This document shows, piece by piece, positions 3,649-17,894 of a stretch of DNA of 64,000 nucleotides. The translations under genes were made by a program, and so were the position numbers. Within the stretch, counting starts at the first letter, position 1. Every line of letters starts with the position of its first letter. Origin of the DNA: Tubulanus polymorphus (lineage: Eukaryota; Nemertea; Palaeonemertea; Tubulaniformes; Tubulanidae); NCBI RefSeq assembly GCF_964204645.1, contig NC_134027.1:27330485-27394484 (forward strand), written 5' to 3'. Below the pieces are notes generated by a model, which saw nothing but the letters and a program-made list of their open reading frames with translations, made no database searches and was not told the DNA's origin.

Positions 3649-5542
3649 ATGTATCTTATGCTCATTTTCTACGGTCTCTTCCCGTGGCTGCGAGCAACTA
3701 ACTTTAGTAAGTATATTCTATTTCTCAATAAAAAAAAGTATTTGCTTTCTTCCTTGTATTAGAATTTAGGGAGATATATGATATTCGTAAAATGTAAACC
3801 ATCGTATTGATACTAGCAAGAGCTGAACATTTCAATTTAGATCCTTAAAATTATGGAATTCATTTTCAATGAAAATTGAAATGAAATATTATCGATTTGA
3901 TTGTTTAACGATGATCTCTAGGGTGAGATCGAAACGTCGAGTATTTTACACTTTAGATATTTTGAATAAGTAAATTCTCGATTTTGAAATTCTTTTAATT
4001 TGTACATTGTGGGTTTTTATCTAATTATCCGTTATTATCGTACTACAATTGTATCGATTATTTTCAGATACATCCGCCGGTCAAGAATTTCTGGTTTTAT
4101 TTCTGCCAAATAAAGACGCTATCGTGGAATCATCGAAACTGACTTTATTCGTCACAGTTCATCGTCGATGTACCGCGCCCGTGTTAGTTAACATTACTAC
4201 TCCATCTTACACCGGCTTTTCGGCAATAACGGAAACAGTTTCAAACAACGAGGGAAAATGTGTAAATCTGCCGGGAAATCTGAGAATAAATTCCGACGAA
4301 GAATTCGTGAAAAAGGTCATAAGAGTTCGATCTAACTGCACTATCCGATTGTGGGGATTAAATCAACAAATTCAGTCGACGGATGGGTTTGTATTGTTGC
4401 CGATTTCTGAAATGTCGATCGAACGCAATGAACAGCAGATTGTCTGGTATAAAGCGGTTTGTTGGCACGACTTTAAACAATACTGTCAGATCGCTATAGC
4501 AGTGAGATATAACAATACTAAACTACGAATCGAATTCCCAAAACAAATAACAACAACAAACGTCACAAATTATCGCAATTCTATTCTATCAGAATTCGAA
4601 GCTTTGTATATAAAAACCGTGCGGCCTTTTGATTTAACAGGAACCGTAATTTCATCCGACAAGCCGATTTCCGTGTTCAGCGGAAATGACGTCACAAGGG
4701 TCCACGATCCTAGTACGAGGGTGAGAGGTCACGATCATCTCTGCGTTCAGTTGACACCCGTTAACACGTGGGGTATGTCAGTATACTCTGACCCCACACC
4801 GGAATTGAATCCCAATTATTACAAGTTGATTCCTGCCCGATTGGGTACGACTGTTCTCTATCGCGCCTACCAGACTACCGGAAGTATGTCAAACTGTACG
4901 ATTAGATATTTGAATAATTCGTCTGCAAAAGATTTCAGTAGAGAGAATTTGAATCAACTTAAAATAATTGTTAACAGCGGTTGGATATTATTACGAGTAA
5001 AAGCCGGGTGTTATTTAGTTATAACAGCAGAAGGTCCAGTTTCATTAACTAGATTCATACATTCGCATTCAAGATTAGTTCCTAATTCCGACCCTTCGAT
5101 GGTGACATTACCCCCAGTTCAACAATTCGATAATTCATATTCGTTCTTAGTACCGGAGAACGCAAGTCGATCCGGTGAGAAATATACGAATTGGGTTCAT
5201 ATCGCGTACTCTCAACCGCCGGATAAGTCTGATAAGATTCAGTTTCACGTAGATGATATACTGATAAACCAGGATCGAATCGTCGAATTAGAATCGATGA
5301 GATTTATCAAGGTTAAAATTTCCAGTGGATTTCATTCAATCGGAAACAATGCCTCGCATCCGTTCAGTGTCGTGGTTTACGGCTCGTTTCGCTATGAAAG
5401 TTATTTGTTTAGTTTGGGACAAAAACTCAACATTATCAACGTAAGCGATTCGTCAATATACGTTTGATTAAAATCAACGAATCGCATGTTAAAATCTGGT
5501 TTTTGTTTCAGGAATTAAAACCTGTTTGGAGAAGAGAAAACG
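3649..5542 (+). CDS. Secreted IgGFc-binding N-terminal domain protein
   Basis: Exon 1 (3649..3706) encodes a signal peptide (MYLMLIFYGLFPWLRA). Exon 2 (4068..5440, phase 1 entry completing an Asn codon) holds nearly the whole protein, and a 31-bp exon 3 (5512..5542) follows. The roughly 470 residues form an IgGFc-binding N-terminal domain (the Pfam family found at the start of FCGBP): it opens with SAGQEFLVLFLPN, has the family's ISSDKPISVFSGN block, then LTPVNTWGMSVYSDP and a C-terminal VVVYGSFRYESYLFSLGQ. Members are extracellular, mucus- or coelom-associated proteins, often expanded in spiralian and other invertebrates and suspected of recognition or mucin-type roles; no ligand can be read from the sequence. 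The 3' end is unresolved: exon 3 ends in phase 1 with a good donor. The start is the ATG giving a leader; an upstream ATG at 3545 is in another frame. Confidence 0.85.
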
Positions 5543-8999: not shown

Positions 9000-11234
9000 T
9001 TATTTTCTCACAAGGTTTGTAATATAACGCTGCATTTCTAACAGTTTTTCGTGCGTGTCTCGATCTTGAGCTTCTATTCGTTTTGGCTGAAAAACAGAAA
9101 ACACAAACAAACCGCTGAAACAACGTCTTATAAAACTGTGAAATCAATTAATGAACCGATGAAATAAATATTATCATCACTACAGCAGACAGTGCGCTTG
9201 CCAGGGATTATTGGACGCTCAGGTTGACTAAATAACTTCCAATTCAAGTGATAACGACCCATCGTCACTCAAACAGCTGGCAGTTAACTCTAACTCACAA
9301 CTGCGGAACCGGGTCCTGTATTTTTTATTTTTTACCTGTCCGAATTCATCGACGTAGGAACAAACACCATTTTTATCGAATACAATACAAACATCGTCAG
9401 TTTTAACGGGAGAACCGGTTACCGAGATACACGGTCGCAATGTCTTCTCTTTCTTCCTCTGAAGTCGAGTTATACCAGGAGTTTGAAATAATCTGAAATA
9501 CAATTAACAGTGAGAGTCAGCAGTGAGTTAATACAGTAGATTTGATAATATAGAGGGTGACACTAGTTTCTGTGTGTCAGTAACTGTACATGTACAGAGC
9601 GTAAAGTGAACATACCTAGGATCAAATTTCGGAGTAATCATTGGTGTGTCCATTAGTTTAGAATACGGAGTTTCTTGATAATAACGATTAGTGTTTGACT
9701 GTCTATTACTGTTAAATAAAATATAATACAGTTTATAAATGTAGAACACGGTTAATAAAAAGATGACTCGCCCCTGATGCAGGAGGGAGGGGATGATATA
9801 GGTGGGTACCTTCTGGTTGAACGTCTCGAAGCTTGGGCTGGCGGTTGATTACTTAATCTTCGACCCTAAACATCAATAAAAATACATGTTTATATCATAC
9901 AGACGAACAGAAAATATAGCGAAATTCAATGATGTCATCGAATTTGATAATTATGTTACATTAATGACTCCAAATTATTAATTATGATTAACACTTAGGT
10001 CATTGAATAAGAAATAATGAGAACTAAAAAATAGAAATGACTTCAGTAATGCAAATCTGACTGTAGCAGATAGTATGTTTAAAATAAGAGAGAGGGAGGA
10101 GAAGGGGAGGAGAGGGAATAGAAAGAAGAGAGAGGTAGGAGAGGAGAGAGGAGGTGTTAGTTTTACCCGTGTAGTGCGTCTGTTAGAAGCTACAGGTTTG
10201 TTCGTTGTCGTCGTTTCCTCTTCCGCTACGGAATCTAAAACTCCAATCACTTTCTTCGAACGTTTACTGGAAAGAAAAATCATTTTACTCTAAAAATTTC
10301 ATCAAAAATTCGAAACATAAAACGAGTGAAACTGATTCAGTGTGATTTACCTTTTAACAGTTGTAACGGTTAAACAAGGCATTTTAAATTCCGAATTATC
10401 GGATTCATTTTTATCAGTTTTATTTGTATTCAACCATAGGATCGCTTTAGAAGCACTGCCAGCTCCTGAAATATAATATAAAACTATATTTATAGAGCGA
10501 TTAGTGAGTAATAATCAGATCAATATTGAATTTCACTTACTCAGATAATCATCAATGTTCATTTCACGAACTGCCTGAAAATCAATAAAACAGTTTTTAT
10601 TTCACTTACATTTTTAATCTGTTGATTGTGTATTAATCATAATAATTATAATCTAAATATGATTACATTACACCCTGATTGAGTTGCGATGAATCCTTGC
10701 TTATTTTGTATATCTATGTTTGGAAGATAATATCATTATGTGATTTTTCGGTGAAACGTCTAAATGGATTCCAATTCCAAACAGATCAAGTCAGTTTCTA
10801 CAAGGGTTGGTGAGATGGTGTAGGGGTCTTACGTGGTTACTTACAGAGGGCGGGAGTACTTATAGGAGGAGGGTACTTACAGGGGGCGCTGGTACTTACA
10901 GGAGGGAGTTTAGCTAATTCAAAATCAGCTATTTTCTTCATTAATTCACATAATACTTGAGCTTCTTTCTGCGTTTTTTGTATTCGAGAATCAACTGAAA
11001 TAAAAGGTTCCGACATCAACGCAACAGCACAGAGTGAAATAATACGACAACACAACACCTGCCGGGTAGAGATACTGATCGCACTCACTGACCTTCTTGA
11101 TCAAAATCTTGCAAGAAAAGTTTCAGTTTTTCTTCTTTTTGACGTCGTGTTAAGTTCTTGCCTTCGTCTCCATCAGGTACGGTCGGTTTAGCTCTTTTAC
11201 TAACGGCTTTACGACCACCAACCTTTCTCGGCAT
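9000..11234 (-). CDS. CDCA8: Borealin (chromosomal passenger complex subunit)
   Basis: Nine coding exons join in frame to 292 residues (human about 280): 11093..11234, 10900..10994, 10541..10574, 10351..10465, 10167..10266, 9810..9865, 9616..9708, 9336..9492, 9000..9086. The N-terminal RRQKEEKLKLFLQDFDQE then VDSRIQKTQKEA matches borealin's three-helix-bundle segment that binds survivin and INCENP; LPPAVREMNIDDYL matches the human LPKALREMNWLDYF. A basic, Ser/Thr-rich linker follows, then TPMITPKFDPRLFQTPGITR (human TPRFDSRVFKTPG) and the C-terminal dimerisation region ending EMQRYITNLVRK. The protein targets Aurora B to centromeres and the spindle midzone. The start is the first ATG after an acceptor at 11248; a non-coding 5' exon probably ends at the CAG|GTGAGA donor near 11430. 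Exon 2's donor lies in a small tandem repeat (separate entry). Confidence 0.93.
10838..10905 (-). repeat. Tandem copies of the borealin exon-2 splice donor
   Basis: On the minus strand the unit CCTGTAAGTACC plus about 7 bp occurs four times at 17-19 bp spacing. GT dinucleotides sit at 10899 (the donor that keeps frame), 10880 and 10844; the third copy is mutated to ATAAGT. Confidence 0.75.
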
Positions 11235-12161
11235 TTTGTATTTTCTATCTGTAAAATAAAAATCAGCCCCTGTGTCGTGAATCACCAATCAACAAACAAT
11301 TGACAAGCTGAGGAACTGGAACTGTCATATATGATTAAAAACGAGCCCTTTGGGCTTTAAGCATCAATCCATCTCCTCCATCATCATTGCGTATCTGAAG
11401 AAGAAATAGAATTAAATTTGCTCTCTCACCTGCTGGTGCTGTGTATTCGGGGATTTAGATATCAGTTTCAATATCAAAACACCATTGAAGTTTTGAAATT
11501 AGCGCTGGACTTCCGCATTTACTAATTACCGACAAAACGAGAACGGGTGGCTCCAAAAATGTGAGGGATATTATACAGCGGTTACAATTACTGGTATAAT
11601 TAAAAAACTGACTACTGATGGATAAGGTAATGTAATGAGCAAATGAGGTATCGTATTTTCTTTAAACTTTTGTTCATTTTTACACAATATAGTAAATTGA
11701 ATTGATTCTGTAGTGAGATGTAATAGAACTGCATCGCAACAATTTTGTTAAATTTCTATCTTGCGTTGTATAACACTGAACAAACAAACGGTACTGCTGC
11801 GCTGTCACTGTTCAATGTGTTACTGCTGCTGTCACTGTTCATGTGTCACTTTGCTCTTTAGTTCACAGTATAGATTCTGAATACAGGTAGGCATAATCTA
11901 CAGCAGTAGGAGGGGTTGACCAGGACTCTAAACTGGAGAGGGCGGGGACCTGGGGGTGGGCTGGGCCGACAGAGGAGTCAGATGAGTAGGCCTACTCTTG
12001 ACTTCATTCCTTTATTTGGCCTGACGTGGGTTGATGTAAGTCAATTTAATGGAATTGAAGCAGCCAATCCTTGGCACTGGCGGCTGCAAATTGGTAACTG
12101 AAGATTATCTTACGTTTTTTTTCAGATTTGGCTGCTGGCGCCACCTGTATCAGGTTCAAAG
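11235..12161. promoter_or_regulatory. Divergent promoter region, borealin / ADCK5
   Basis: 927 bp between two outward-facing start codons. It should contain the 5' UTR introns of both genes: a minus donor near 11430 and a plus acceptor at 12125 (TTTTTTTTCAG) placed 36 bp before the ADCK5 ATG. No repeat array or further coding sequence was seen. Promoter elements were not recognised. Confidence 0.5.
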
Positions 12162-15100
12162 ATGCTTTCATCAAATATGAGGCATTTTCATAGACACGTC
12201 AAAAATCTACAGCAGTTATCTACAAGGAGATTGTGTCAACAGCAAACTGCATCACAGAGCAGCAGTAGCAGCAGGACGAGATATATATTACCAGTTGTAT
12301 TAGTAGCGCCACCTACTGCTTTAACTGCGTACTATTTATCTCTAGATAAACAGCAAAAGCGTAAACTTAACGTGACACTGGCGGGATTCAGCAGATTCGC
12401 TAGGTAATTACCATTCCCACTCCGTCCTTCTACTCAGTAATTACTATTCCCACTCTGTCCATCCATCCTGTTATCTTTCTTGTTATTCTTTGATTAGTTC
12501 AGTTGGTGCTGGGCATAAAAATACTAAACTGATGAGAACTGAATGAGCGGAAAGTGTGTTATTATCTGTTTATTTGGTCGCTGTGTCACTTAATCACCAG
12601 ATTACAACTGATTGTATTTGTGTATTTCAGGTCGTTATGGGTCGGTTTATCTCTTTCTATTGATTATAAATGGAATCTGTATGGAATTGATGAGGTATGT
12701 ATCCATATGAGAGCTTCACTTCTCCTTACATAGGTAATGCTTAGAGTAGTGTAATTTAGTTAGTGTTTAGTCCTTTGATCGGCTTGTGATGTTTATATTT
12801 AAAGGATAGTTGTGATGTTAATATTTAAAGAATAGTTGTGATGTTTATATTTAAAGAATAGTTGTGATGTTTATATTTAAAGGATAGTTGTGATGTTTAT
12901 ATTTGAAGGATAGTTGTGATGTTTATATTTAAAGGATAGTTGTGATGTTTATATTTGAAGGATAGTTGTGATGTTTATATTTAAAGGATAGTTGTGATGA
13001 TTACGACACAATACTGCGAGGGTGTCATCTCAGAGCGGCACAGCGGATACTCGATGGTTGTTTGAAGAACGGTGGTTTGTACATCAAACTCGGACAAGGT
13101 CTCGTTTCTATGAACCATATTTTACCCGAGGAATATTTGAAGACTTTAGAAGTTTTACAAGATAAAAGTTTATCACGGAAAATTGATGAGGTAAATTTGT
13201 GAATTTTTGTTATAATCTGGAATGGAAAATGAAACTGATGTTTGTCTAGGTACTGGTGTAATCTCTGTATTGAGTGACAGTTTTTAAATTGTTTTCATGT
13301 CATTTATTGATTTCTAGGTTGAACAGTTATTTGAGGAAGATTTCGGAGTAAAACCGACTGAAATGTTTAAAGAGTTCAATGATGAGCCGTTAGCAGCTGC
13401 GAGTCTCGCGCAGGTGCATAAAGCAGTTACTCACAGCGGTGAAACGGTAGCTGTAAAGGTGCGTAGATATATCTCAGTAAATCCCGCCTGAAACTGCTCG
13501 AGTAAATTCATAAAACTAAAAAAAAACTCTAAATAAAAAAGTTAACTGCTTGAGGCATGTTACTCAAAAATTGGTTAGAGATAACCAGCAGATAAAAACG
13601 ATGTTTTTTAACAATGAACTTTTACTTGTCAATATCTAATAACTTACCAACTTTGAGCAACTGCGGCCTCTGAATATTACACTTCTAAGCAGACTTTGAT
13701 ATTGAACAAACATTCTTTAATTAGTTGTGTGTATGATTTGTTTAGGTACAATATATTGATCTGAGGGACAGGTTTAAAGGTGATATAATTACGTGTGAAA
13801 TTCTACTGAGAATTATCGAATGGATGCATCCAAAATTCAGCTTCTCGTGGGTCATGAAGGTACGATTCATTCAAATAGAGTCATGAGAATAATAATTGAA
13901 ATTTTGATTCAATCATTGATTGATTGATTTATTTGGATTCAGGAATTAAAAGGTACTCTCGCCGACGAGTTGGATTTTGAAAAAGAAGGACAAAATGCCG
14001 AGCGTTGTCAAAGAGAATTAAAACATTTGAAATACGCTTACGTCCCGAAAATAGATTGGGATAAAACTAGTAAGGTAAAGAATAGAACGTTGTTGTTTGA
14101 ATTGTGATCTGTTTTACAATCTGTATTTAATTGGATAATGTGTTGTTTTTATTTGTAGCGGGTTTTAACTGCTGAATTTATAGATGGTTGTAAAATAAGT
14201 AACATACAAGCGATTAAAGATATGGGTCTAACTCTGAAAGATGTAAGTTTATTTAGGTTCTACTTAACCAGAAGAACCCAGTTCTTCATCCATTCTGAAT
14301 CCGATCTGAAGTTTTTGGTTATGTTGACTTGGGCTTAAACAACAAGCTTTGAAACTGTGGCACTGGGTGCAGCTGTTTAGTTGAACTGACAGGGTTCATA
14401 ACAGTCCTTGAGAATGAGTTTGGGCCACTATAAACCCTGAACTCAGTGCTGTTTAGTTGAACTGATGATTATATTTCTGTTTTATAGGTCGATCATAAAC
14501 TAGTCACGTGTTTCGCTACTCAGATATTTCACACGGGTTTCGTTCATGCTGATCCACATCCTGGCAATAGTAAGTCTAATAAATAACATCCATCAATTTC
14601 AGACTTAAACGAGCTGAGAAATATTTCTTGAAATGAAAACCCACGATTGATGAAATATTTTACTCATATTCGAACTGTTTTTCAGGATTTTGACTCTAAT
14701 CTGAAATTGCTGAGACAATGACATGGCAACTTAAGAGAAAATCTCAAAACTGTTAGAAAATAGATATTTCACAATTGTGGGATTTTTACTCGCTAAAAAC
14801 AGTCAGTCAGTCAGTCAGTCAGTCAGTCAGTCAGTCAGTCAGTCAGTCAGTCAGTCAGTCAGACAGTCAGTCAGTCAATTAATCAGTCAATCATGCTGAA
14901 ATATTTGTGTTGTTATATTATTTTCAGTATTTGTACGTAAAGGTCGAGATGGAAAAGCTGAATTAGTTTTATTAGATCATGGTTTATACGAATATTTACC
15001 GACTGAAAACCGTCTGTCGTTGTGTAAACTGTATAAATGTATAATAATGTCTGATGAAACTGGAATGAAGAAGTTCAGTAAACAACTCGGTGTCGACGGT

Positions 15101-17894
15101 AAGAATCACAGAAAATCAACATCGGTAGAATCTCCTCATAAAACGAGTCAATCGGGTGCAGTGGTTTCTGAGTTAGTTCGCAATTCGAATTCAGGCAAAC
15201 AAATTTGATTCATATTCTGTTGTCTGAATGATTAGTGTGTTCAACTTGGAAACATTCAAATCAAGACGAGTCCACTGTAAATCTATATGAAACTCACTAT
15301 ACAACCTCAAATTTGATTTGAGTTCTATGGGTAGATGAACCTATTCGAAATAACTGTCTTTGAATCATAAGTTTGATTTGTTGTTTCTTCTGGATAGAAT
15401 CAGTTATAAGATACTTATAGACTATAGAAAAGTTCATTCCTTTTCACAAGTCTATAATTATAACTAATGATCCAAGGAGGTTCTACTGTAAATACAAAAT
15501 TCAAAGTTTAAAATTATGACATGAGTGTTAAATAAATACATATGAAATTAGAGGGACATAATTATCAGTATTGGATCTTAATATCTAGAAAGTATTTACA
15601 TCTTCAGCTGCATGAAATTTCAATTTGTTTAGACAAAATTATATATCATTTATAAACAAATTTTTCATAGATCAAGAATTTAAAAATGATCACTTCAGCA
15701 ATAGCTGATGTTCGCCAGCAGTGTGTGACTATTCGACTATTGAAATATGTTTATTATTGATTATTTCCGATAGATTATTATCTGTTTTCGTTGCTGATTT
15801 ATATGAGACCGATAAAACTTCCGAATCGTGACCCTTCGCATTCGTTACACCTCGATTTCAAGGACTTCAAAAAACTTTCACCGGAAAAAAAAGCGTTAAT
15901 TCGCAAACAAGTCGAGGATATCCACTTCGGAGGCGTGAACATCTTACGACAAATGCCTCATCAACTTCTTCTCATTTTTAGGTAAGAATCATCGGGGAAA
16001 AATACGCGATAAAATTACGGTTTGATTTTATAATTTACAGATTATCACATTTTCGCTGAAGTAATTGTACAACGTCCAATAAAACGTGATACTCTACGCT
16101 TACCGAGTCAAATGACCGACGAGGATTTAAAATATATGAGAACAGCAGTTCAACATCATTTCGATGAAATCGTCGTAGTACTTAGAGATATGCCTAAACC
16201 AATGTTATTATTTATCAGGTCGGTTTTATTAGTATTTCATGTTGCTATGCTTGCTTATTACGCTTGCTTACTCTTATAAGGGCGGCTTGCTTTGCCTTAC
16301 TCAAGGAGTGGGGCTTGCTTTTCCTACTCTAGGAGTGGGGCTTTCTTTGTTTACTCTACAAGAGCAGGTTTTGCCCTTAACAAGGCTTTAACGCAACAGT
16401 AGCTTATATTTTCTTGAAGATTTGTTCGCCTGTTTCACTTAAAATATTGATTTATTTGCAGGAATTTAAATACAATCAGAGCTATAAATAGAACTCATGG
16501 TCATCCTGTAGATAGATACAGTATCATGGCTAAAACGTAAGTTCAAATTATATTATTTACATCTAATCATAGCTATTAGCATATGAAAGAACAGTGACAG
16601 GTCAGCTGACCAGTGACATCACAGCCTCTCATAACTGACATGTGACCCTATCCTTAGGTCAGGTGACCAGTGACATCACAGTCACTCAGCACTAGCAGCT
16701 AACCCTAACCCTAGGTCAGCTGACCAGTGACATCACAAACACTCACTCCTAACAGCTAACCCTAACCCTAGGTCAGGTGACCAGTGACATCACAGTCACT
16801 CAGCTAACCCTAACCCTAGGTCAGCTGACCAGTGACATCACAGCCACTCAGTACTATCAGCTAACCCTAACCCTAGGTCAGGTGACCAGTGACATCACAG
16901 TCACTCAGTACTAGCAGCTAACCCTAACCCTAGGTCAGGTGACCAGTGACATCACAGGCAGTCATGTCTAGCATCTAACTGACAGCAGAAGCCTGGAAGG
17001 CTCCAACTAGCAAGTAGTTGGAGCCTTCCTTCATTCATATATTACAGAGCTATAAGTGGAATGTTCCGAGAGAAAGTGTCTCCATCACTTGTGGATTATA
17101 TGAAATGTTGTTACGAGTCACAGATTTATGATCTGAAAGTGAAGTAGGTTTCATTCTAATTCATCATCGCAATCAATCAATATAGAACACAGTTTATAAT
17201 GAAACCATATTTGTTTAATTTAGAATGGAGAATCTGCGAATGTGGCTCGGTTTGTTCTATATACGAATATTAGTTTGGTTCGGAAGAATTCCTGATTTAA
17301 CTCAAGTTATGCAATCTATACACAATAAAGGGGACAGGTAAGCAAACACGCCACCTGGTGACGAGAACTAGCAGTACGTAGAAGACTGGTCCGTCAATCA
17401 ATGATTCATTTCTCAGTTTCACCCAGTCCTGAAATGAACTGAGAGCTCTGGTCAAACGGGGGAGGGGGCTGCAATAACAATATACCACTGATGCACCAAG
17501 GTTCTCGATGGATTCTCTGCTTGCCTCTCATCGTTCTAGGACTGAATGTTTCTATAATAGCCCTAAAGTTGATATGACAATATAAACCTATCTGTATTCC
17601 TATTACCTCCAAATCTTTATCAAGACTCGTTAGATTAACAGGGGTTTGTTGGTCAAAAGTTGGTGAAAATCAAAGTGGATAGCTGAAAACTGTATTTACC
17701 TTTACCCACCTACCTTCCAGCTACTGATGATACCAGAAACCAGTTCCACAGTTCTCAAGTTCTTTTTAGGATTATTGAAATGTTTATTACCACAAGTCAA
17801 ATTCAAATTCATACTTGTGGAATTGGTTCATGTTTACAGGTACTCAGTTGTGTATTATAATAGTTTGTTGTTTTTTTCTAGGATGTATGGATGA
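12162..17894 (+). CDS. ADCK5: ADCK5, mitochondrial UbiB/ABC1-type atypical kinase
   Basis: Exons: 12162..12403, 12631..12694, 12987..13190, 13318..13458, 13746..13859, 13943..14074, 14159..14242, 14488..14569, 14928..15098, one of 15774..15981 or 16041..16218, 16462..16536, 17048..17143, 17224..17337, 17882..17894. Using the second alternative gives 569 residues, the first 579; both keep frame. UbiB signatures: KLGQ (136-139; family KxGQ), the Ala-rich loop [12 protein letters not shown] (195-206), VAVK (214-217), HADPHPGN (347-354) and LLDHGLY (369-375). Blocks such as [28 protein letters not shown] and [13 protein letters not shown] match ADCK5 rather than ADCK1 or COQ8. The basic, Ser-rich N-terminus plus a hydrophobic stretch ([18 protein letters not shown]) fits a mitochondrial presequence and membrane anchor. 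ADCK5's substrate is not established. The C-terminus is shorter than in human. Poly(A) signal AATAAA at 18263..18268. Confidence 0.93.
12788..12995 (+). repeat. 26-bp minisatellite duplicating the ADCK5 exon-3 acceptor
   Basis: Eight exact-period units start at 12788, 12814, 12840, 12866, 12892, 12918, 12944 and 12970. Each contains TTTATATTTAAAG (or TTTGAAG) followed by GATAGTTGT. The last copy supplies the real acceptor (AG at 12985-12986) and the first nine coding bases of exon 3. Confidence 0.9.
14801..14877. repeat. (AGTC)n microsatellite
   Basis: About 19 AGTC tetranucleotides with one AGAC interruption, 50 bp upstream of the acceptor of the 14928 exon of ADCK5. Confidence 0.95.
15774..15981 (+). 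other. ADCK5: ADCK5 alternative exon A (70 residues)
   Basis: Enters in phase 1 (G|AT) and leaves in phase 2 (AG|G). It begins [15 protein letters not shown] and ends [13 protein letters not shown]. Homologous to exon B but 10 residues longer, with an Asp/Lys-rich insertion. Confidence 0.8.
16041..16218 (+). other. ADCK5: ADCK5 alternative exon B (60 residues)
   Basis: Same phases as exon A. It begins [15 protein letters not shown] and ends [13 protein letters not shown]. Length and sequence are closest to the single human exon at this place (DYLLFAEMLMQRPVR ... LPRPMLLVLR). Confidence 0.85.
16590..16965. repeat. Minisatellite carrying telomere-like AACCCTAACCCTA
   Basis: About six to seven copies of a 50-60 bp unit: GGTCAGSTGACCAGTGACATCACA, then a CACTCAG stretch and CTAACCCTAACCCTA. 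Each unit holds one and a half to two telomeric CCCTAA hexamers and a GGTCAGCTGACC palindrome. Intronic in ADCK5 (16537..17047). Confidence 0.9.
16995..17029. repeat. Perfect 15-bp hairpin before ADCK5 acceptor
   Basis: GGAAGGCTCCAACTA and its exact reverse complement flank a 5-base GCAAG loop, ending 18 bp before the exon that starts at 17048. Confidence 0.9.

Follow-up and report, generated by a model that had tools for sequence, protein, structure and literature searches.

How a gene can carry two adjacent exons for the same protein segment, and what would keep both from entering one transcript, is the question raised by a kinase gene of the nemertean Tubulanus polymorphus. We analysed a window of 64,000 nucleotides (contig NC_134027.1, positions 27,330,485 to 27,394,484), for which a preliminary description had proposed mutually exclusive duplicated exons in an ADCK5 gene. 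Few mitochondrial kinase-like proteins are as poorly understood as ADCK5. We put the probability at roughly 85% that the two exons, here 10A and 10B (A and B for short), arose by an old tandem duplication and persist as mutually exclusive alternatives in an ADCK5-type gene present once in the genome, separated by steric exclusion and by frame disruption with NMD.

A complete ADCK5-type gene with an adjacent exon pair

The window contains, in full length, the only copy of a gene for an ADCK5-type ABC1/UbiB kinase, with 14 coding exons per isoform and GT-AG introns throughout. Its parts are as follows.

12162..15098, plus strand: constitutive exons 1 to 9, from the spliced translation, with PF03109 at E=2e-80
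12162-12403, 12631-12694 and 12987-13190, plus strand: exons 1 to 3
13318-13458, 13746-13859 and 13943-14074, plus strand: exons 4 to 6
14159-14242, 14488-14569 and 14928-15098, plus strand: exons 7 to 9
15099..15773, plus strand: intron 9 before exon 10A, 675 nt (it would be 942 nt to exon 10B)
15774..15981, plus strand: exon 10A, 208 nt, a diverged copy with a 10-residue insertion
15982..16040, plus strand: the interval between A and B, 59 nt, with the A of its best branch-point match at +44
16041..16218, plus strand: exon 10B, 178 nt, the canonical ADCK5-like copy
16462-16536, 17048-17143, 17224-17337 and 17882-17894, plus strand: constitutive exons 11 to 14, stop codon TGA

The earlier identification of the gene as an ADCK5-type ABC1 kinase is supported, and its membership of the ABC1 family is shown by a PF03109 (ABC1) match above the Pfam cut-off (270 bits, E=2e-80, residues 159-403), alike in isoforms A and B. 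The ABC1/UbiB kinase motifs are readable in the translation, including KxGQ, the A-rich loop, the invariant Lys, HxD..N and a DFG-like motif, which here is DHG instead of DFG (LLDHGLY, within exons 1-9). The C-terminal part gave no match in NCBIfam; beyond the ABC1 domain, it agrees with human ADCK5, which we treat as a lead to orthology. In the same assembly, COQ8 and ADCK2 each have a gene of their own, and a search for ADCK5 relatives in a viral contig collection returned none. A genome-wide search for ADCK1, using a kinase segment of human ADCK1, matched only COQ8, ADCK2 and ADCK5, and ADCK1 may have been missed or may be truly lost.

Both A and B are entered in phase 1 and left in phase 2, and the spliced translations, 579 aa for isoform A and 569 aa for isoform B, are fully open. 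The re-derived gene model thus reproduced the bounds, phases and lengths first given for the two exons, along with the claim that either exon alone keeps the 569/579-residue frame. Being adjacent, homologous, phase-matched and both open, A and B have the features of a mutually exclusive exon pair.

Three other features were observed in the window. A 26-bp tandem array lies at 12784-13003 (8.5 copies, 95% match), and exon 3 starts inside it; the units repeat an acceptor-like TTT(A/G)AAG(G/A)ATAG, so that eight nearly identical 3' splice site candidates result, and the array seems to have grown from the exon 3 edge. A 57-bp tandem array with CCCTAACCCTA units sits at 16599-16979, in the intron that follows exon 11. 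On the minus strand, at 9000-11240, is a divergent neighbour gene whose product has an N-terminus (PRKVGGRKAVSKRAK...KLKLFLQDFDQE) that looks borealin-like by eye.

Homology and divergence of exons 10A and 10B

The translations of A and B align over their full length, with a local BLOSUM62 score of 64 compared to 24 +/- 4.5 for 5,000 shuffles (maximum 53; z ~8-9) and a BLASTP E = 1e-4. Amino-acid identity is 32-37%, varying with gap placement, and A is 10 residues longer. The homology of the pair and the divergence of A, with its 10-residue insertion, both proposed in the preliminary description, held. A single match to exon A is present in the 267.8-Mb assembly, which rules out that a collapsed or misjoined copy of the gene is the source of the pair. 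No further duplicated exon or third copy was detected in the ADCK5 introns, where the best other exon/intron comparison scored 35, equal to background. As a lead only, the human ADCK5 segment scores 119 against B and 66 against A, in agreement with the resemblance of B to the single human exon pointed out in the preliminary description. ADCK1 was considered as the source of exon A and rejected, with a score of 26 against the human ADCK1 segment, again a lead only. Given scores of 66 against ADCK5, 64-74 against B and 26 against ADCK1, exon A is best regarded as an ADCK5 copy, and the pair probably arose by an old tandem exon duplication within this gene.

Between the two exons, synonymous divergence has reached saturation (pS 0.78), against a pN of 0.50. 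Identity is concentrated at second codon positions, 37/60 (62%), with 21/60 (35%) at first and at third positions each. When neutral drift was simulated to the same distance, the frame stayed open in 2.5% of runs and 14% amino-acid identity was kept (99th percentile 25%), compared with the at least 32% seen. In-frame codon usage of exon A is +0.19 bits/codon, and all 313 of 313 same-length windows from ADCK5 introns scored lower (maximum -0.11). On these sequence measures, we take exon A to be a coding exon under selection and not a relic.

AF2 models of the isolated exon peptides, of low confidence (pLDDT 59 and 64), show a like order of helices for A and B, and at the same low confidence place the 10-residue insertion of A in the loop that links helix 1 to the long helix. 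Each exon would encode the same helical segment of the kinase C-lobe, beginning ~40 residues past the DHG, the DFG-equivalent, and swapping it may tune partner or substrate contacts. One could go further and picture isoform A as a second, tissue-restricted ADCK5 enzyme with other partners or substrates, covering work that falls to ADCK1 in other organisms, ADCK1 being undetected in this assembly, such that one UbiB gene fills two roles through a steric splice switch; we regard this extension as highly improbable.

Splice sites, the short interval and joint products

The acceptor of exon A is weak (TTTCCGATAG), the 5th weakest of 44 in a leave-one-out reference set, while its donor is good (TAG/GTAAGA). 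Exon B has a strong acceptor (ATTTACAG), ranking 33rd of 44 and above the median, and an average donor (CAG/GTCGGT). Because the acceptor of A is far weaker than that of B, B is probably the default form, and it is probably the acceptors that decide which of the two exons is used. Intron duplex energies were no better than those of shuffles, which does not point to the RNA docking/selector class of mutually exclusive exons. A candidate docking pair between 15486-15517 and the acceptor of B (32 nt, 72% complementary) was rejected, as shuffles did equally well.

A weak acceptor would also be expected if exon A were a decaying or unused duplicate and isoform B alone were made, and the faster divergence of A, together with its insertion, fits that account. 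We nevertheless consider it improbable, since A is open, in phase and flanked by both splice sites despite saturated synonymous divergence, and combines coding codon usage with protein-level conservation mostly at second codon positions. Use of both exons, one per transcript, is the reading that we prefer.

What might keep A from being joined to B is suggested by the length of the interval. At 59 nt it is shorter than every one of 187 introns sampled from the same genome, the shortest of which is about 71 nt, although in a sample of this size occasional introns of about 60 nt could have been missed. The sample comprises CCT and myosin introns (n=97, shortest about 71 nt), kinesin introns (n=79, shortest about 73 nt) and the 11 constitutive introns of ADCK5 itself (shortest 80 nt); lengths from the CCT, myosin and kinesin genes are estimates from HMM profile matches, with an error of several nt. 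The 33 exactly placed CCT introns are 77 nt or longer, and two merged profile matches that could hide shorter introns measured about 76 and 93 nt by eye. The steric argument, first drawn from comparison of the interval with one 71-bp intron (5441-5511), thus withstood comparison with 187 of the genome's own introns, and efficient joining of A to B is unlikely.

The best branch-point match (YTNAY) in the interval is predicted 44 nt from the donor of A. A distance below 50 nt between donor and branch point is the threshold for steric interference, found in 57/629 human clusters (PMC5740500), and the same ~50-nt limit has been applied to OGDH (PMC7969005); the predicted +44 site falls within it. 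Together, the short interval and the position of this match make steric exclusion the likely first barrier to joint inclusion. Under this model, exon 9 would join either B, the probable default, or A. In transcripts that take A, the donor of this exon would be barred from B, since 59 nt would leave no room for U1 and U2 together, and A would instead be joined to exon 11.

Frame disruption would provide a second barrier. Joining A to B gives a premature stop after ...RLSHFR, at residue 486, in agreement with the stop within seven codons reported in the preliminary description. Skipping both exons breaks the frame, with a stop at 413 aa, and if the 59-nt interval is retained after A, translation stops as soon as this exon ends (481 aa). 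All such products, out of frame or stopped at once, would be expected to undergo NMD. With a frame shift, a stop and an interval below the intron range of the genome, inclusion of A with B is either prevented or non-productive.

These products also suit two other explanations. Exclusion could operate through the frame alone, with A and B joinable, the joint product destroyed by NMD and the short interval incidental. The exon lengths, 208 and 178, are not multiples of three, the joint product stops at residue 486, and exons of length indivisible by three occur in 377/629 human clusters (60%) (PMC5740500); an interval below 187/187 sampled introns nonetheless argues against efficient joining, and we hold this explanation to be possible but rather unlikely. 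Alternatively, exon A could be a regulatory (poison) exon, its peptide irrelevant, that reduces the amount of ADCK5 protein when it is included together with B or the retained interval. Early termination of both products is consistent with such a role, but a poison exon would not require the 69-codon frame, the homology or the exit phase matching exon 11 that A has kept, and we think this very unlikely. A mutually exclusive pair held apart first by steric exclusion and then by frame and NMD would account best for these features.

Comparison with known mutually exclusive exons

Mutually exclusive exons that arose by tandem duplication form a known class (PMC9741552, PMC5740500); the splicing arrangement at this locus introduces no new principle. 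In the literature searched, we found no report of such a pair in ADCK5 or any UbiB/ABC1 kinase. The preliminary description had considered a splice-selected variant of a UbiB C-lobe to be new, which stands for the gene family but not for the swap of a kinase C-lobe segment, known from JNK1 (MAPK8), where exons 6a and 6b are exchanged (PMC7259801). Relative to known ADCK5, the gene has the same whole-gene architecture and kinase motifs (ABC1/UbiB, PF03109), and differs in that the C-lobe exon following the DHG is present in two alternative versions.

Within the same genome, a muscle-type myosin heavy chain gene (C4:4125126-4126944) carries four tandem copies of an exon ending ...GNAKTTRNNNSSRF, consistent with mutually exclusive use. 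These copies are about 0.55 kb apart, unlike the ADCK5 pair, so no steric constraint applies there. OGDH exons 4a/4b and other steric pairs resemble ADCK5 in that a donor-to-branch point distance of less than about 50 nt blocks joining (PMC7969005, PMC5740500). In OGDH, distant branch points near the donor have this effect, whereas in ADCK5 the entire interval is merely 59 nt.

By analogy, JNK exon 6a/6b is the closest precedent for the ADCK5 pair, with tandem alternative exons encoding a C-lobe segment of the kinase domain in both (PMC7259801). JNK1 is a canonical MAP kinase, whereas ADCK5 is an atypical kinase of the ABC1/UbiB family, and divergence is much greater between the copies in ADCK5, which also differ by 10 residues in length, than between those of JNK1. 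Natural isoforms distinguished by a single C-lobe segment offer a pointer to where ADCK5 specificity may lie, and the A/B pair is a ready-made swap experiment for this protein. Beside the JNK case, an atypical kinase family would thereby gain a C-lobe exon swap of its own, enforced by an unusually short interval.
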